Below, in pieces: positions 30,817 to 37,417 of a DNA stretch of 64,000 nucleotides. Location of the stretch: NCBI RefSeq assembly GCF_004791165.1, contig NZ_SRUZ01000002.1:248001-312000 (forward strand). Direction: 5' to 3'. Positions within the stretch are counted from its first letter, which is position 1. Every line of letters begins with the position of its first letter. A program made the translations under genes and the position numbers. The stretch is from Mesorhizobium sp. M8A.F.Ca.ET.218.01.1.1. Lineage in GTDB: Bacteria > Pseudomonadota > Alphaproteobacteria > Rhizobiales > Rhizobiaceae. The notes below the pieces were generated by a model. That model was not told the origin of the DNA, ran no database searches, and saw nothing but the letters and a program-made list of their open reading frames with translations.

Positions 30817-31022
30817 GATTTCTCTCCCTTGTTTGTGATGGCGCATTGTCCGCCTTTGTGGTGGCGAAGGCAACGCGAGGGAGAACGCAACCGTTGTGCG
30901 GAAAATAGATAACGGTGGGTGCCTGTGCATCAATTGTCGCAAATGGTAGGGTGAGTTTGTCATCGCTGGAATCGTTAAGTTGAGTTCCCTCACACGCCCC
31001 TCCGTCCTGTCGGACCACGCCC

Positions 31023-31904
31023 TTGAACTGGGATGACGTGCGCATCTTCCTCGCCGTGGCGCGCGCCGGCCAGATCCTTGGCGCCGCGCGGCGGCTGGAG
31101 CTCAACCATGCCACCGTCTCGCGCCGCATCGCGGCCCTGGAGGAAGCACTGAGGACAAAACTCTTCCGCCGCCTGACCACCGGCAGCGAGCTGACGCCGG
31201 CAGGCGAGCGCTTCCTCGACATCGCCGAGCGCATGGAAGGCGACATGATCGCCGCCCGCTCGACCATATCGGGCGAAGGCGACGACGTGTCCGGAACCGT
31301 GCGCATCGGTGCACCCGACGGCTTCGGCGTCGCCTTCCTGGCCAAGCGGCTGGGCGAACTCACCGCCCTGCACCGCGAACTCACCATCCAGCTCGTGCCG
31401 GTGCCGCGCTCCTTTTCGCTGTCGCGGCGCGAGGCCGATATCGCGATTACCGTCGAGCGGCCGACCGAAGGGCGGCTGGTTGCCGGAAAGCTGGTCGACT
31501 ATTCGCTCGGCCTGTTCGCGTCGCGCGCCTACGCCGAAGCCAATGGACTGCCCAGAACCGCCGCCGAACTCGGCCGGCACACCCTCATCGGCTATGTGCC
31601 GGACCTCATCGTCAGCCCTTCGCTCGACTACGCGGCCGAATTCAGCGCGGACTGGCGCACCAGCTTCGCCATCTCCTCGGCGCTCGGCCAGGCCGAAGCC
31701 GTGCGCTCGGGCGCCGGCATCGGCATCCTGCACACCTTCGTCGCCCGCTCGATGCCGGAGCTGGTGGCCGTCGACGTGGTCGCGCCCATCCGCCGCGCCT
31801 ACTGGCTGGTCTACCATGAATCGGTGAGGCCGCTGCGCCGCGTCCAGATCGTCGCCAGCTTCATCACCAAGGCGGTTGAGCGTGAGCGGGGCCTCTTCCT
31901 GTAG
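31023..31904 (+). CDS. LysR-type transcriptional regulator
   Basis: 293 residues. The HTH is NWDDVRIFLAVARAGQILGA through NHATVSRRIAALEEALRTKL; the effector domain begins VSGTVRIGAPDGFGVAFLAK. TTG 31023 is the only plausible start next to the conserved N-terminus. It belongs to the LysR subgroup with 'LNHATVSRR', often beside mmsA in rhizobia, and is divergently transcribed from it over a 206-base gap. An autoregulated activator or repressor of mmsA is likely by position. Confidence 0.9.
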   Translation: MNWDDVRIFLAVARAGQILGAARRLELNHATVSRRIAALEEALRTKLFRRLTTGSELTPAGERFLDIAERMEGDMIAARSTISGEGDDVSGTVRIGAPDGFGVAFLAKRLGELTALHRELTIQLVPVPRSFSLSRREADIAITVERPTEGRLVAGKLVDYSLGLFASRAYAEANGLPRTAAELGRHTLIGYVPDLIVSPSLDYAAEFSADWRTSFAISSALGQAEAVRSGAGIGILHTFVARSMPELVAVDVVAPIRRAYWLVYHESVRPLRRVQIVASFITKAVERERGLFL

Positions 31905-31932
31905 AAGCGCCGTCACGGCACAAACACGGCCG

Positions 31933-32027
31933 GTCCCCACACGCCGCCTTTTCCTTGCCACAAAACCAGCCAGTGTGGCATCAGGCGTGCGGCCCTCGGC
32001 CACGCAAGGCGGGCGCCGGGTGGGGAC
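31933..32027 (+). promoter_or_regulatory. Structured leader before the PLA2/PLD operon
   Basis: Between the LysR stop and ATG 32056, an outer perfect 8-bp pair (GTCCCCAC 31933-31940 with GTGGGGAC 32020-32027) encloses two hairpins: TGCCACA/TGTGGCA (31956-31980) and GCGTGCGGCC/GGCCACGC (31985-32005). Together they can form a three-way junction in the RNA. No T-run follows, so it is not a simple terminator. I do not recognise a known riboswitch. Could be a regulatory leader or a folded repeat. Confidence 0.5.
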
Positions 32028-32055
32028 ATCTTTCAGAAAGCTGGCGCGGATAGAC

Positions 32056-32499
32056 ATGCGAGCCGTTCTTGCCATCCTGCCGCTGCTTCTTGTCTCCGCA
32101 TGCGCCAATCCATGGACAAAGGCACCGGAAGCCGAATTGCCCAGGCCGATCCGCTACGCCATGGCGCGCCCCTCGCCTTTCGTCATCGGCAATTACTGCG
32201 GTCCCGGCACCCGCACCGGCGATCTGTCGGCCCGGCCGGTCGACCGCCTCGACGCCGTTTGCCGAACCCATGACGCCTGCTACATCGCCCGCCGCGACCA
32301 TTGCGACTGCGACGGCGCCCTTGTCGCCTCGGCGCGGGCAATCCGCGACGACAAGACGGCACCGCGCAAGACGCGCAGCGAGGCCGAACTGCTGATCGCC
32401 ACCTTCGCCATACCCGTCTGCAAGGTTTTTCCGCAAGGTTTCATGCCGCCGCGCGACCCGGCGCAGTTGAGCGCCATGAAGGCCGGAGCCAACGGGTGA
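32056..32499 (+). CDS. Phospholipase A2-like lipoprotein
   Basis: 147 residues. A short signal ends in the lipobox LVSAC, with Cys16 the likely lipid anchor. The mature part carries the secreted-PLA2 signature: GNYCGPG (calcium-loop-like, about residue 46-51) and CRTHDACY (69-76), with the catalytic His72-Asp73 pair, then Cys83 and Cys85 in CDCDGAL. PLA2 enzymes release sn-2 fatty acids from phospholipids with calcium. The stop overlaps the GTG of the next gene, a PLD-like lipoprotein. Catalytic activity is inferred from motif only. Confidence 0.75.
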   Translation: MRAVLAILPLLLVSACANPWTKAPEAELPRPIRYAMARPSPFVIGNYCGPGTRTGDLSARPVDRLDAVCRTHDACYIARRDHCDCDGALVASARAIRDDKTAPRKTRSEAELLIATFAIPVCKVFPQGFMPPRDPAQLSAMKAGANG

Positions 32500-34649
32500 A
32501 TAGCCGCACGATCGTCATCCTCGCCCTGTTCGGGCTGGCTGCCCTTGCCGGTTGTGCCGGTGCGGGTAGCAATGCCTGCGACTTCCTGGCGGGACAGGAA
32601 GCTTGCGCGCGGCCCTCGCTGTCGGCCGGCACGCCCGGGCCACAGTTCGCGGCGGCGTGGTTCTTCGGCAATGCCATCGACAGCGACTACGAAAGACGGT
32701 TCCTGGCGCTGCTTGCCAACAACCAGCTCGGCGCCATGGACCGAGCCAACGGCACCGGCCCGTTCGGGCGCAACCGCCGCGATGTCCAGAACCGCGATTT
32801 CCAGGCAACATATTCGACGTTGCGGCAACTGGCCGGACCGGTCGCCAACGCACATCTGCCGCCGGCCAGTGGGGGCGGCGGCGACGGCCATTTCAACGGC
32901 CGCTGGCGGGTGTCGCGGCAGACGCTCTACATCGATGCGGCGGCGCGGGCCTCGGCTTCCAAGACCTTCGATTTTTCCGGCTTGCAGGCACGCAGCACCG
33001 AGATCGTCGTGCGCCAGGCCGGCCAGCAGCCAGCCGATATCGAAGGCAGTTGCGACGGCGCATTGGCGATCCGCGCCGCCGGAGCCTCACGCACCATTGC
33101 CGCCGGCGCGGCATTCCGCCTTCGCCTGTCGAGCGAGAACGACACGGTCAGCCTGTTTCCGGCCGATGACCTGAACCGGTGCACGGCAAGGATCCGCTCC
33201 AGCCTCGCGCCCGCCGGCGCGCCGCTCACCATCCGGCGCGTAGAGACCGCCGATCCGGCGCTCGCCAGTTTGGATAGCCGCTACCAGCGCTGCCCGGTCC
33301 CCGACGGCGCCGGCCTCGACGCCCTCGAGCGCGCCTTCTATGCCGGCCGGTGGCTGTCGCAGACCTGCGCCATGCCGATCGGCCAGCCCAGGCTGCTGCG
33401 CAAATCGCGCGACGGCTTCAACGCCAAGGTCGAGGCACTGATGGGCGCGCCGCTGTCCGATGCGGCAATAGACAAGGGCGATCCGGAATTGCCGCTCGAT
33501 TTCTCGAAGGTGCCAAGGCTGAAGCTGATCTATCTGTCCTCGCTCGAATTCAAGGCCGACTTTTCCGGGCGCATCATCGAACGGCTGATCCGCCATCATG
33601 CAGCGCTTGGCGCCAAGGTGCGCATCATGGTCACCGACGTGCTTGAACGTGACAAGGACGACGCCATGCTGCAGCGCCTGGCGGCCGAATTCCCCAATGT
33701 CGAGCTGCAGGAATACCGCTGGCGGGCGGATCATGGCGCGCCGATCGACGAGCAGATTTCACAGCTGCACAAGACCCATCATATCAAGATGCTGGCGACG
33801 CTGGCGCAGGACCCCGCGCGTTCGCGCGTCATCATCGGCGGCCGCAACATCCATGATGGCTTCCTGTTCCACCGGCCGATCGATCTGTCCCGCTATCCGG
33901 ACCTCGAGCAATACGGCAAGACCGATGGCCTTTCGCTGAACTACTATTCGAACTGGAGCGACTTCGACATCGAGTTCGCCGACAGGGCGATGGTCGAGAC
34001 GCTCGCCGCGCATCTGTCGACAATATGGCTGCGCGACGCCGACACAAACCTGGTGCGTCCCTTCTCCGTCCCGGTCCACGGAGATGGCCTGCCATCTGGC
34101 AATGTCCGGCATTTCATTTCGGTGCCCTATGAGGATGACCACGCGCTGGAGGCCTATTTCGTCGAGCTGGTCGACGCCGCCCAGCACCATATCCAGATCG
34201 TCAACCCTTACCTCAATCTGACGCCGAGCCTCGCCCGGGCCTTCGATCGGGCGCTCGCCCGCGGCGTCAAGATCGACATTGTCGGCCGCATCGACCTCAA
34301 GGGCGATATCGGCGGCAGGTTCCTCACCGCGCTCAACAAGCTGTTCGTCGAGAAATATGGCGACCGCATCGACATCCGCGAATTCAAGGCACCTGACGTG
34401 GTGCTGCATTCCAAGATCATGCTGATCGATGAAAGGCTGGTCGCCATCTCCTCGGTCAACCTCAACAACCGCAGCTTCTTCCACGATTCCGAGAACGGCA
34501 TGATGGTGCTCGACCCCGCCTTCTACGCCAGGATGAAGCCGGTCTATGACGACTATCTCGCCCACTCGAACCCGGTTTCCACCAAACTGACGATCCCGTG
34601 GGCCTACCGGCTGCTGTTCGACGAGGCCTGGGTCAGGCAGGCGTTCTGA
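32496..34649 (+). CDS. Phospholipase D-like (HKD) lipoprotein
   Basis: 717 residues. Signal peptide and lipobox LAGC (ALFGLAALAGCAGAG) in the first 25 residues; then an unrecognised 320-residue region. Two HKD units follow: HHIKMLATLAQ with GGRNIHDGF near residue 428, in which the usual Asp after HxK is missing, and LHSKIMLIDERLVAISSVNL near 637, complete. This resembles bacterial cardiolipin-synthase/PLD proteins. GTG 32496 overlaps the upstream TGA (coupling). Probably anchored to the periplasmic membrane face and acting on phospholipids; the role with its partner is unknown. Confidence 0.8.
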   Translation: MNSRTIVILALFGLAALAGCAGAGSNACDFLAGQEACARPSLSAGTPGPQFAAAWFFGNAIDSDYERRFLALLANNQLGAMDRANGTGPFGRNRRDVQNRDFQATYSTLRQLAGPVANAHLPPASGGGGDGHFNGRWRVSRQTLYIDAAARASASKTFDFSGLQARSTEIVVRQAGQQPADIEGSCDGALAIRAAGASRTIAAGAAFRLRLSSENDTVSLFPADDLNRCTARIRSSLAPAGAPLTIRRVETADPALASLDSRYQRCPVPDGAGLDALERAFYAGRWLSQTCAMPIGQPRLLRKSRDGFNAKVEALMGAPLSDAAIDKGDPELPLDFSKVPRLKLIYLSSLEFKADFSGRIIERLIRHHAALGAKVRIMVTDVLERDKDDAMLQRLAAEFPNVELQEYRWRADHGAPIDEQISQLHKTHHIKMLATLAQDPARSRVIIGGRNIHDGFLFHRPIDLSRYPDLEQYGKTDGLSLNYYSNWSDFDIEFADRAMVETLAAHLSTIWLRDADTNLVRPFSVPVHGDGLPSGNVRHFISVPYEDDHALEAYFVELVDAAQHHIQIVNPYLNLTPSLARAFDRALARGVKIDIVGRIDLKGDIGGRFLTALNKLFVEKYGDRIDIREFKAPDVVLHSKIMLIDERLVAISSVNLNNRSFFHDSENGMMVLDPAFYARMKPVYDDYLAHSNPVSTKLTIPWAYRLLFDEAWVRQAF

Positions 34650-34753
34650 TGCAATTCCAGGAAAAGTGCGAAGCGGTTTTCCGCCCGGAATTGCATCCAC
34701 CCAAGAGATGTCGCCCAAAAGTGGCCCCGGTTTTGGGGCAACGACATGCATCA
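34648..34753. repeat. Two short palindromic repeats
   Basis: First unit 34648-34697: GATGCAATTCC and GGAATTGCATC enclose about 28 bases. Second unit 34708-34753: GATGTCGCCCAAAAGTGG and TTGGGGCAACGACATGCATC. Units like the second recur at 44425-44469, and a partial first unit (GCAATTCCAGGAAAGTG) occurs near 11194. Such units are scattered in Mesorhizobium-like genomes. Confidence 0.75.
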
Positions 34754-34791
34754 AAGCAAGGAACAGAGCGCGCCGGCGAGACGCGCGCGGG

Positions 34792-36048
34792 CTATTTAAG
34801 ATAACGCTCCTGCGCCAGGGCACGCACGTCGATGTCGGGTACCCGGTTCGAGATGATGTCGGCCAGCACCTTGGCCGAGCCGCAGGCCATGGTCCAGCCC
34901 AGCGTTCCATGGCCGGTATTGAGATAGAGGTTGGACAGTTCGGTGCGGCCGATCAGCGGTGGTCCATCCGGCGTCATCGGCCGCAGCCCGCACCAGAACG
35001 TCGCCTCGCGCATGGCGCCGGCGCCCGGAAAGAGATCGCCGACCGAGTGTTCCAGGGTGCGGCGCCGCGATTCGTGCAGCCTGAGATCGAAGCCGGAAAT
35101 CTCGGCCGTGCCGCCGACGCGGATGCGGTCGCCAAGCCGGGTGATCGCGACCTTGTAGGTCTCGTCCATTACGGTCGACACCGGTGCGGCGGCGGCGTCC
35201 TTGATCGGCACCGTGATCGAGTAGCCTTTGACCGGATAGACCGGGATCGACCGCTTCATCCGGCGCATGAAACCCGCCGAATAGCTGCCCAGCGCCATGA
35301 CATAGGCGTCTGCCGCCTTCCAGCCAGCACTGGTGCTCAGATTGGCGACACGATTGCGGCTGCGGATGACGCGCCAGATGGTCACGTCGTACTCGAACTT
35401 GACGCCGCGCGCCACGCAGAGCTCGGTCAGCCTGTCGGTGAACATCTTGCAGTCGCCGGTCTCGTCATGCGGCAGTCTCAGCCCCCCGACGAACTTCTCG
35501 CGCACGCCGGCCAGCCCCGGCTCTGCCGCGATGCAGCCATCCTGGTCGAGGATTTCGTACGGCACGCCATATTTCTTCAGCACCTCGACATCGCCTCCGG
35601 TGCCGTCGAGTTGCTTTTGCGTGCGAAACAATTGCAGCGTGCCCTGGGTCCGCTCGTCATAGGCAATGCCGGTCGCTTCGCGCAGCGCCTTCAGCGTGTC
35701 GCGGCTGTATTCCGCCAGCGGCACCATGCGCGCTTTGTTGATGGCGTAACGCTCGGCGGTGCAGTTGCGCAGCATCTTGACCAGCCATGTCCACATATGC
35801 GGGTCGAAGGCCGGCCGGACCACCAGCGGGCCGTGCTTCATCAGGAGCCACTTGATCGCCTTGAGCGGAATGCCGGGGCCGGCCCAGGGCGAGGCATAGC
35901 CGGGCGAAATCTCGCCGGCATTGGCAAAGCTGGTCTCCAGCGCCGGGCCTTTCTGGCGGTCGATCACCGTCACCTCATGGCCGGCCTCGGCGAGATAATA
36001 GGCCGTGGTCACCCCGATGACGCCACTGCCCAGCACCATGATCTTCAT
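34792..36048 (-). CDS. dadA: D-amino-acid dehydrogenase
   Basis: 418 residues. The FAD loop is [40 protein letters not shown] is the DadA signature; the C-terminal [15 protein letters not shown] and [20 protein letters not shown] close the FAD fold. It deaminates D-amino acids such as D-alanine, passing electrons to the respiratory chain. ATG 36048 is 6 bases from AAGGAG; a second ATG at 36051 would be too close. An alanine racemase gene 1.4 kb upstream on the same strand suggests alanine catabolism. Distinct from the FAD gene at 23887. Confidence 0.92.
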
Positions 36049-36162: not shown

Positions 36163-36708
36163 TCACGCCGCCGACGGACCGGGATCGTCGTCTCTCCCTG
36201 TCTGCCGCATTCCTGCCGTCTCGCCAAGGGGCCGGATAGAGGTGTCGGCGCTGTAGACGAGGGTCAGCCCGAGTGGCCGCGATCCGCCAGCGGAAGCTCT
36301 TTCCCGGACTGCCCGCCGCGCGGCTTCCGGCTGATAGAGTATCGCCTTGATCCGGATCGATTCGCGCCTGCCGTCGGGGTGTTCGAGCGATGCCGTCTGG
36401 CCTTGCGCCATGCCAAGCATGCACAGGCCGCGCCTGGTTGCCACCGAGAGGCTGGAGCCGACCGGTCCGCGCACGTCGTTCTGCACCAGGGTGCGCGTCT
36501 CGGCCGCACCGGCATCGACGCAAAACACCACCCGGCTGTTCAGCGTCACGATATCGGGTTCGACCGACTCGATGGGCACGACGCCGGCATTGGAAAGCTT
36601 CTCTTCGATCATCGCGACCATCGGATCCGCGAATGCCCGCCGGCGCTCGAGCATTACTTCCAGGACGGCGAAATCCTTCGTCGTCAGGCGGCAGCTTCCG
36701 TTTTTCAT
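36163..36708 (-). CDS. GreA/Rnk-like protein
   Basis: 181 residues. Its core resembles the C-terminal FKBP-like domain of GreA/GreB and Rnk: NSRVVFCVDAGAAETRTLVQ, VATRRGLCMLGMAQGQTASL. The N-terminal region MLERRRAFADPMVAMIEEKL is a short helix pair that could be the Rnk coiled coil. ATG 36708 follows GGAGG at good spacing. The C-terminal 40 residues are low in family similarity. It lies 14 bases downstream of a second Rnk-like gene. Either an RNA-polymerase secondary-channel factor or a diverged paralogue. Confidence 0.65.
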   Translation of the reverse strand: MKNGSCRLTTKDFAVLEVMLERRRAFADPMVAMIEEKLSNAGVVPIESVEPDIVTLNSRVVFCVDAGAAETRTLVQNDVRGPVGSSLSVATRRGLCMLGMAQGQTASLEHPDGRRESIRIKAILYQPEAARRAVRERASAGGSRPLGLTLVYSADTSIRPLGETAGMRQTGRDDDPGPSAA

Positions 36709-36722
36709 TATCGCCTCCACGA

Positions 36723-37142
36723 TCAGTGCTCGCCGCCGCCGGCGGGCGTATCGACCGCCTCCACGGTTGCCGACAGTTTGCGGCCGCCACGGCCGCTCCA
36801 GAACACCACCTGTCCGGTGCTGACGCCGACAAGCGCCGTTCCCATCGGCGTCAGCACCGAGATCCGGTTTTCGGCAATGTCGGCGTCGCCTGGATAGACC
36901 AGCGTGATGCGCCTGATATCACCGCCTTCACCGCGAACCGTGACTGTCGACCCCATTCGCACCACGCCGGCCGGAATTGCCGCCGCTTCCGTAATCACCG
37001 CCCGGTCCAATTCCGCGAGCAGCTCATCGGCCGTCTCGGGCGCGCGGTCGAGCACGGTCCGGGCCAGGCCGGTCAACCTGTCATGGTCGGTGTCGCTGAT
37101 TAGAATTTGGACGGATGGATGCAGTCCCGTTGCATGTTGCAT
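36723..37142 (-). CDS. rnk: Rnk-type nucleoside-diphosphate-kinase regulator
   Basis: 139 residues. A helix pair (HDRLTGLARTVLDRAPETAD, ELLAELDRA) leads into the GreA/GreB C-terminal domain: VVRMGSTVTVRGEGGDIRRI, LVYPGDADIAENRISVLTPM and GTALVGVSTGQVVFW. The usual Rnk layout is complete. ATG 37142 (MQHATGLH) is 6 bases from GAGG. Rnk binds RNA polymerase and affects nucleotide levels in other bacteria. Its partner gene at 36163 is a likely tandem paralogue. Confidence 0.85.
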   Translation of the reverse strand: MQHATGLHPSVQILISDTDHDRLTGLARTVLDRAPETADELLAELDRAVITEAAAIPAGVVRMGSTVTVRGEGGDIRRITLVYPGDADIAENRISVLTPMGTALVGVSTGQVVFWSGRGGRKLSATVEAVDTPAGGGEH

Positions 37143-37417
37143 GGCAAACCTCATGGATCGGCGCATCGAACGGATGCGCGCTTGCCGCCGCGTTGACGGC
37201 GGCCTGATGAAAGCCGGCAGCCGCGGAGAGCGGTGCGGCTTGATGGCGATGGGTGGATGTATGGATGCCCCGGTACGGACGAACGCCGAAAGGCGGCCGC
37301 GCCGGGGCTACGATCCCGCGATCGGGCAGACCCTGAACAAGGTTCTGATATAAGCGAGGTTGCTCATGCGCCGAACCTTGCCGACAGGCGTCCGCTTGTC
37401 AAGCGTGGCCAAACCGC

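Follow-up and report, generated by a model that had tools for sequence, protein, structure and literature searches.

What would a bacterium do with a phospholipase A2 (PLA2)-like predicted lipoprotein and a phospholipase D (PLD)-superfamily predicted lipoprotein encoded by overlapping genes? This question is raised by a locus of Mesorhizobium sp. M8A.F.Ca.ET.218.01.1.1, in a stretch of 64,000 nucleotides of contig NZ_SRUZ01000002.1 (the window), where the following features were assigned:

31954..31983, + strand: upstream inverted-repeat element, CTTGCCACA...TGTGGCATCA, conserved among the loci examined
32056..32499, + strand: P0001, PLA2-like predicted lipoprotein, 147 aa, ATG start
32496..32499, + strand: start-stop overlap of four bases, GTGA, common to the P0001 and P0002 genes
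32496..34649, + strand: P0002, PLD-superfamily, ClsC-like predicted lipoprotein, 717 aa, GTG start

The coordinates and the four-base overlap given in the original prediction are exact, and an overlap of four bases was present in 65 of the 70 named loci with both genes. The chromosomal neighbours were unchanged in 70 of 71 named loci, with a LysR gene upstream. Seven neighbour genes were identified (methylmalonate-semialdehyde dehydrogenase, the LysR regulator, D-amino acid dehydrogenase, alanine racemase, RNA pyrophosphohydrolase and two Rnk/GreA-like proteins), five of which are constant neighbours. The pair occupies one chromosomal site among housekeeping-type genes. No RNA family reached its gathering threshold in 31000-36000. 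Between 31850 and 34900, a sigma-70 promoter scan returned 0 sites, compared with 0.5 expected by chance, and 2 terminator-like sites were found where 2.1 were expected.

In the loci examined, the inverted-repeat element begins 80 to 216 bases upstream of the PLA2 start codon; it may serve the pair as an operator or promoter element. Its only perfect copy in the genome is the one at the pair. When up to 2 mismatches were allowed, the genome held 10 matches, two of which are the pair's own site read on both strands, and the reversed-pattern control likewise gave 10; this search thus revealed no wider regulon. On visual inspection, the element did not fit sigma-70, sigma-54 or Pho sites.

P0001 has a calcium loop (Y47-C48-G49-x-G51), a His72/Asp73 dyad and D86 at the Asp99 position. 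The predicted CxxHDxCY signature is present as CRTHDACY at C69-Y76, with the dyad correctly numbered. Y47, C48, G49, G51, H72 and D73 were invariant in all 70 P0001 homologues, and the YCGxG loop and the dyad were also kept throughout a diverged PLA2 set (8/8). D86 was replaced by Asn in four of the eight PLA2s of alignment A3; Asn at this position has also been found in plant PLA2 enzymes (PMC6635587). At the sequence level, the PLA2 resemblance of P0001 exceeds chance. Scores against Pfam families lay below the curated cut-offs: PF00068 (E 2.7e-5, 25.1 bits; cut-off 32.1), PF08398 (E 1.6e-4, 22.3 bits; cut-off 23.9) and PF05826 (15.2 bits; cut-off 22). The best phmmer match to solved PLA2s had an E of 2.9e-4, and a search of the genome with PF09056 (prokaryotic PLA2) gave no match. 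The predicted structure was weak (pLDDT 65.6) and gave no Foldseek match at E<=0.001; its alignment with rice PLA2 2wg9_A (Z 5.9, rmsd 3.9, 80 aligned) was tied with unrelated helical chains among the matches listed.

P0002 comprises a beta-rich domain (~138-251), a first PLD half (~340-530) and a second PLD half (~535-700) downstream of its lipobox cysteine, C20. It scored above the cut-offs of PF13091 (E 2.9e-18, 66.4 bits; cut-off 27) and PF00614 (26.6 bits; cut-off 21.9). The original prediction of HKD motifs was borne out for HKD2, which is canonical (H638-x-K640-x4-D645), and in part for HKD1, a variant (H429-x-K431 ... G448-G-R-N451) in which no Asp stands at the canonical HxKxxxxD spacing. 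H638, K640 and D645 were conserved in 71/71 homologues, and H429 and K431 in 69/71, the remaining two being broken copies. All half-site catalytic residues were retained in 13 PLD sequences 26-58% identical to P0002. Two other resemblances were set aside. Residues 138-251 of the model resemble the N-terminal domain of the arginine deiminase PAD2 (Z ~8.4, 11% identity), which was taken as a shared beta-sandwich arrangement only. As a candidate defence system, the pair returned nothing for P0001 in PADLOC and 14 weak, generic PLD-domain families (DrmC, Mko) for P0002.

By inspection, a lipobox follows a hydrophobic stretch in each protein, as originally proposed: VSA-C16 in P0001 and LAG-C20 in P0002. 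The P0002 cysteine was kept in 69 of 71 aligned sequences, the exceptions being a broken copy (L125) and a remnant (L126). Seventeen of the 70 P0001 homologues have Asp immediately ahead of the lipobox Cys, which makes lipidation of P0001 uncertain. Judged by these signals, both proteins are probably membrane-anchored.

Both genes were matched in 93 of 146 Mesorhizobium genomes and neither in 49; the 4 genomes matching a single gene hold fragments. The pair is thus nearly all-or-none within the genus. Of 151 genomes sampled across the family, eight had a PLA2 of the P0001 type, and in each of them the PLD gene was directly adjacent on the same strand; six of the eight belong to related genera outside Mesorhizobium, so the genes do co-occur elsewhere. 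The pair is under purifying selection: median dN/dS was 0.142 for P0001 and 0.265 for P0002 (0.138 and 0.186 in its PLD halves). A P0002-type PLD with no detected PLA2 of the P0001 type was present in five genomes (G1015, G1114, G1071, G048 and G121), and the PLD protein therefore does not need the PLA2. In a few genomes (G019, L125, G963, G001, G964, L082 and L121), one gene was apparently intact and its partner damaged. In Bdellovibrio, the gene for a P0002 relative overlaps an acyltransferase-domain gene. At E<=1e-20, the PLD profile matched 1 of 289 genomes in a class sample (the source genome) and 7 of 299 in a phylum sample (the source genome and its genus), with at most three first-look candidates scored per genome. 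Among the open-licence PMC papers listed in literature searches, no title or abstract described a PLA2 and PLD lipoprotein operon, which agrees with the original view that no such system had been described, a limited test of it.

The nearest relatives of P0002 bear on its likely reaction. Among four E. coli enzymes (ClsA, ClsB, ClsC and PssA), hhalign placed ClsC nearest (E 3.1e-13 over 318 columns in both halves), followed by ClsA (5.3e-11, 129 columns), ClsB (7e-9, 305) and PssA (1.5e-8, 160). With hmmsearch, ClsA ranked top of the four, ClsC came third with A4 (47.0 bits, versus 61.2 for ClsA) and last with A2, and ClsC alone matched the first half of the profile. By profile, the nearest solved structure was phospholipase D 7e0m (E 4.4e-15 over the second half). 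Because P0002 is close both to hydrolases such as 7e0m and to cardiolipin synthases, it may transfer phosphatidyl groups. The original prediction of two phospholipid-cleaving activities may accordingly be half wrong, as read from these similarities.

We propose, with a probability of about one half, that the two enzymes are anchored in the outer envelope and work there as a unit to remodel glycerophospholipids. Sec export and lipidation would bring both proteins to the outer membrane. There the PLA2, depending on Ca, would cleave the sn-2 acyl chain from glycerophospholipids that are damaged or out of place. P0002 would act on the same lipid pool through its two half-sites, either transferring the phosphatidyl group, with cardiolipin as the product as in the case of ClsO, or hydrolysing it. 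Glycerophospholipids that disturb the asymmetry of the outer membrane would thus be removed or converted. The original prediction placed both activities on the periplasmic membrane face; ClsO, by comparison, faces outward. The envelope-lipid remodelling idea of the original prediction is consistent with the conserved catalytic sites, the lipobox signals, the near-complete co-occurrence and the similarity of P0002 to phospholipases D and cardiolipin synthases. A narrower version, which we regard as possible but doubtful, is a lipid-repair operon in which PLA2 and ClsO-like phosphatidyltransferase lipoproteins share a surface pool, for example by deacylation and head-group exchange leading to cardiolipin or lysocardiolipin.

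Several observations count against the remodelling proposal. HKD1 is without its Asp, the nearest solved structure is a phospholipase D, not a synthase, and hmmsearch scores ClsA above ClsC. On the PLA2 side there are the Asn variants of D86, the Asp before the lipobox Cys and the weak model. The PLD protein occurs in genomes with no detected PLA2 of the P0001 type, and a few genomes have one gene damaged beside an apparently intact partner. PLD folds also include nucleases, and the pair is missing from 49 of the 146 Mesorhizobium genomes.

Scavenging was considered as an explanation: at the cell surface, the pair would break down external phospholipids, from plants, fungi or dead cells, for fatty acids, phosphate and head groups, possibly in rhizosphere or nodule life. 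Acting side by side, a PLA2 and a PLD would take off the acyl chain as well as the head group, and absence from 49 of the 146 genomes might suit an accessory nutritional trait. However, no transporter or phosphatase is among the seven neighbour genes identified, five of them constant, and the upstream element, with no second perfect copy in the genome, gives no sign of a nutrient regulon; we consider scavenging unlikely. Quite unlikely, in our judgement, is that P0002 is a PLD-superfamily nuclease or phosphodiesterase acting on nucleic acid or envelope polymers, the PLA2 only exposing or releasing its substrate. Comparison of the predicted fold puts Zucchini, Nuc and NucT on top, with PLD3 also listed for the second half, and phmmer gives Nuc at E 0.0017. 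Profiles instead put P0002, among solved structures, nearest the 7e0m phospholipase and phosphatidylserine synthases, with Nuc at 1.7e-5, and near the E. coli Cls enzymes, and its partners are lipid enzymes by domain, PLA2 here and an acyltransferase in Bdellovibrio.

The original prediction had also offered a contact weapon, and phospholipases do serve as type VI effectors elsewhere. An antibacterial system acting by contact or secretion, in which the lipoproteins would be passed to nearby cells or presented to them, is nevertheless highly improbable here. The operon has only the two enzyme genes, with no third one that could confer immunity; downstream, the next gene identified runs convergently, and the surroundings are constant and of housekeeping type. 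The site is identical in 70 of 71 named loci, dN/dS is low, neither protein matches a delivery-domain family, and no relative covering 80% of either protein was found in phage and plasmid collections. We favour outer-envelope remodelling over a contact weapon.

Rhizobial membranes contain phosphatidylcholine, and the pair would raise the question of how rhizobia with this lipid keep the outer membrane asymmetric. To our knowledge, the role of PLA2-type proteins in free-living bacteria is largely open. If legume symbionts couple a PLA2-like protein to a ClsC/ClsO-like lipoprotein through a conserved operon, each of the two would gain a partner and a function open to experiment. The lipid-repair version, if true, would be a case of lipid metabolism beyond the inner membrane in which two enzymes of different kinds do the work in place of a single synthase. 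A 2026 paper reported that glycerophospholipids are synthesised at the outer membrane (PMC12846801). Its authors describe a misreading of their own protein, ClsO, as a toxin or lipase (PMC12846801), and the locus warns against reading PLD-like surface lipoproteins automatically in this way.

Among known systems, P0001 is like the secreted PLA2 superfamily (PF00068; plant and animal pancreatic types) in its YCGxG calcium loop, PxDxLDxxCxxHDxCY motif and conserved cysteines, and unlike it in its lipobox signal, its six cysteines after the lipobox Cys and its score under the Pfam cut-off. The outer-membrane phospholipase A, OMPLA (PldA), shares with the pair the proposed role, Ca-dependent removal of outer-leaflet glycerophospholipids; it is a beta-barrel serine hydrolase of unrelated fold. 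A Salmonella PLA2 has been reported to be distantly homologous to group XIV enzymes (PMC11525133). P0002 shares with E. coli ClsC the alignment across both halves and the DxSGR and GGRNIxDxxF motifs, whereas ClsC has 473 aa, is not described as a lipoprotein, has a canonical HKD1 and is 24% identical. Phospholipase D 7e0m, also the best Foldseek match of P0002, differs in its length of 391 aa, and identity in that alignment is only 12-13%.

ClsO of Acinetobacter is described as a surface-exposed, ClsC-like outer-membrane lipoprotein cardiolipin synthase with homologues in alpha-, beta-, gamma- and epsilonproteobacteria (PMC12846801). By that description, P0002 resembles ClsO in its PLD superfamily membership, lipoprotein signal, two catalytic half-sites and, by hhalign, similarity to E. 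coli ClsC. By inspection, P0002 has the lipoprotein signal of the ClsO type; of the two HxKxxxxD motifs it has the second alone, and because its HKD1 is without the Asp, it was not classed as ClsO. The term 'phospholipase A' does not appear in the main text of the ClsO paper (PMC12846801). The pair thus differs from the ClsO system, as described, in an extra N-terminal region of ~300 aa with its beta-rich domain, an altered HKD1 and a PLA2 partner.

The original prediction described two overlapping lipobox genes, and the four-base overlap was borne out, with GTGA common to the adjoining ends of gene 1 and gene 2 in this 7.13-Mb genome. The genes and their motifs are as follows:

32056-32499, + strand: gene 1 (P0001, PLA2-like), ATG start, 147 aa
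P0001 signal: MRAVLAILPLLLVSA-C16
P0001 residues 47-51: calcium-loop motif YCGPG
P0001 residues 61-76: motif PVDRLDAVCRTHDACY
P0001 residues 83-86: motif CDCD
32496-34649, + strand: gene 2 (P0002, PLD superfamily), GTG start, 717 aa
P0002 lipobox: LAG-C20, then a long N-terminal region
P0002 first half-site (HKD1): H429-x-K431...GGRN
P0002 second half-site (HKD2): H638-x-K640-x4-D645...SVNLNNRS

When P0001 was compared with Pfam, PF00068 (E 2.7e-5), PF08398 (1.6e-4) and PF05826 (0.024) were recovered, every one below its curated cut-off, and no NCBIfam model was matched. The best phmmer match to solved PLA2s had an E-value of 2.9e-4. With a profile built from eight diverged P0001 relatives, 53 different chain sequences were recovered (E<=0.01, best 6.4e-5), and the ones listed are PLA2s or toxin subunits of PLA2 type. 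None of the eight relatives departs from the calcium-loop or dyad residues, and position 86 is Asp in four of them and Asn in the others (L194, L197, L195 and L122); a review of plant PLA2s describes enzymes with Asn, Ser or His at the matching position (PMC6635587). The AlphaFold model of P0001 (31 alignment rows, pLDDT 65.6) was too weak for proof of fold; fold comparison placed a rice PLA2 at Z 5.9 among tied matches. Separately, one genome of the order sample (G347) carried six PLA2-like matches where its congeners have one or two, and an order-wide PLD profile search found no partner in it or in the PLA2-bearing congeners. PLA2 family genes are annotated on plasmids in Methylobacterium.

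P0002 matched PF13091 (E 2.9e-18) and PF00614 (5.5e-6), as well as eight NCBIfam models, all far below their cut-offs; one of these is a chance match and the other seven belong to the PLD superfamily. Among solved structures, its family profile lay nearest to the 7e0m phospholipase (4.4e-15), followed by phosphatidylserine synthases. Compared by hhalign with four E. coli K-12 enzymes, P0002 matched ClsC best (3.1e-13), then ClsA (5.3e-11), ClsB (7e-9) and PssA (1.5e-8); both halves were aligned by ClsC and ClsB, and E. coli ClsC shares DxSGR and GGRNIxDxxF with P0002. By hmmsearch ClsA was top and ClsC third of four or last, depending on the family alignment (A4 or A2, respectively), and only ClsC matched the first half of the profile. 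Because ClsA stood above ClsC by hmmsearch, the ClsC link is supported by hhalign and by coverage but not by all measures.

The HKD motifs proposed originally held in part: HKD2 is canonical (H638, K640, D645), whereas HKD1 lacks the Asp of HxKxxxxD. Across 13 PLD sequences reaching down to 26% identity (a Bdellovibrio plasmid protein), H429, K431, G448, G449, R450, N451, H638, K640, D645, N655, N657 and R659 were invariant, and the Asp-less HKD1 is therefore a family feature rather than decay. A distant relative on a plasmid of Bdellovibrio sp. HAGR004 (L128:4689-8482) overlaps by one base a gene encoding an acyltransferase domain joined to a condensation domain which, to judge from these domains, is another lipid-enzyme pairing within this PLD family. 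The AlphaFold model of P0002 (30 alignment rows) had a pLDDT of 53.2; its second half gave clear PLD-superfamily matches (4h4a, Z 12.1, rmsd 2.9, 132 aligned), and residues 138-251 matched a beta domain. P0002 relatives with lipobox-like starts but no PLA2 were seen in two further families of this order (L162 in G121, L163 in G048).

P0002 was used to fetch 71 named loci, and P0001 adjoined it in all but one (70/71); that one, L126, is a C-terminal remnant. The four-base overlap recurred in 65/70 (exceptions L094, L113, L121, L122 and L125), although a script picked whichever start codon fell closest to the expected position and some exceptions may reflect annotation. A LysR gene lay upstream in 70/71 loci (L122 differs) and a D-amino acid dehydrogenase gene downstream in 69/71, missing from L122 and from L113, where the contig ends. 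As the LysR-to-PLA2 gap ranged from 96 to 1483 bases (69 loci), co-transcription with LysR is possible but not a constant feature. In the window, two adjoining Rnk/nucleoside diphosphate kinase regulator-type genes (36163-37166) separate the D-amino acid dehydrogenase gene from the alanine racemase gene; they are present in some, not all, orthologous loci.

Conservation of the catalytic residues, on which the original prediction depended, was nearly complete. In P0001 homologues Y47, C48, G49, G51, H72 and D73 were kept in 70/70 and D86 in 68/70; in P0002 homologues H638, K640 and D645 were kept in 71/71, and H429 with K431 in 69/71. Median dN/dS came to 0.142 over 2128 P0001 pairs and 0.265 over 2145 P0002 pairs, with dS limited to 0.05-1.0 for whole genes and 0.1-1.2 for regions; the sequences are related, so pairs are not independent. 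Within P0002 the medians were 0.455 (residues 1-40), 0.370 (41-137), 0.351 (138-251) and 0.248 (252-340), and 0.138 and 0.186 for the PLD halves. Six broken, truncated or very diverged loci were excluded (L082, L113, L121, L122, L125, L126).

Two sequence elements flank the pair:

31954-31983: upstream inverted repeat, 30 bases, CTTGCCACA-N11-TGTGGCATCA, strongly conserved
31955-31962 and 31974-31980: its arms, TTGCCACA and TGTGGCA
34651-34694: palindromic element, 44 bases, directly past the PLD stop codon

The inverted repeat begins 80 to 216 bases ahead of the PLA2 start codon. Its consensus was matched at 21 or more of 30 positions in the window and likewise in 68 named loci (L082 was omitted from scoring), with 15/30 in L122 as rough background, and the genome has a single perfect copy. 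For the 44-base palindrome, a pattern built from this copy found no second copy in the window at up to 3 mismatches. L099 and L106 have similar palindromes (GCAATTCC...GGAATTGC) upstream of their pair, and the element may thus be a dispersed repeat.

The two genes also co-occur elsewhere, consistent with the original prediction. Among 146 genomes of the genus (E<=1e-15 for P0002, 1e-6 for P0001), 93 had both, three P0002 only (G028, G035, G961), one P0001 only (G930) and 49 neither. The Fisher value for these counts takes no account of relatedness among the genomes and should not be read as the probability of independent linkage. The single-gene genomes hold fragments (P0002 residues 531-703, 654-717 with a stop, and 547-717; P0001 1-62), and in G028 and G035 what is left lies at the same site, the PLA2 being lost along with most of the PLD gene. 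Some of the 93 carry one damaged partner: the PLD gene has lost its middle beside a retained PLA2 in G019 and the similar L125, is matched in two pieces in different frames in G963 and has an internal stop in G932, and PLA2 matches are split in G001, G964, L082 and L121. Such copies may be sequencing errors.

Of the 151 genomes in the family sample, 11 encode the PLD protein and 8 a PLA2 of this subfamily. In each of those 8, two within the genus and six outside it, a PLD gene adjoins the PLA2 on the same strand; in L122 (apparently one contig with G1131) the pair lies in a different gene context. The PLD gene occurred without this PLA2 in G1015, G1114 and G1071, the first two retaining the dehydrogenase-LysR-PLD order. 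In the order sample (347 genomes), 10 genomes matched the PLD profile at E<=1e-20 and 18 matched the PLA2 profile at E<=1e-6; both were found in 8 genomes, every one within the family, with PLA2s but not this PLD in ten others and this PLD but not this PLA2 in two (G048, G121). PLD profile matches in the class (1/289) and phylum (7/299) samples were all the own genome or genus. From these counts, the pair is mainly a Mesorhizobium-lineage trait that is also present in several genera of the family beyond it.

Lipidation of both proteins is predicted from the motif alone. The lipobox Cys of P0001 was kept in 69/70 homologues, the exception being the damaged L082. An Asp immediately before this Cys is unusual in a lipoprotein signal; it was present (LSDC or LADC) in 17/70, e.g. 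L098, L106, L111 and L116. Under the Lol rule, Ala at +2 directs a lipoprotein to the outer membrane, and this residue suggests an outer-membrane location for the pair. The authors of the ClsO study caution that sorting rules differ between species (PMC12846801).

The best reading of the pair is outer-envelope glycerophospholipid remodelling, to which we assign a probability of about 0.5. It joins the observed sequences, conservation and linkage to predicted lipidation and outer-membrane location and to putative catalysis by P0001 and P0002. ClsO is described as an outer-membrane lipoprotein, nearest ClsC, that at the cell surface probably uses up one molecule each of PG and PE (PMC12846801). 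P0002 is not classed as ClsO because it lacks the two HxKxxxxD motifs that help define that protein. By analogy, ClsO is the described protein closest in role to P0002, and deacylation by the operon's PLA2 would remove misplaced lipids as the counterpart of ClsO's proposed condensation.
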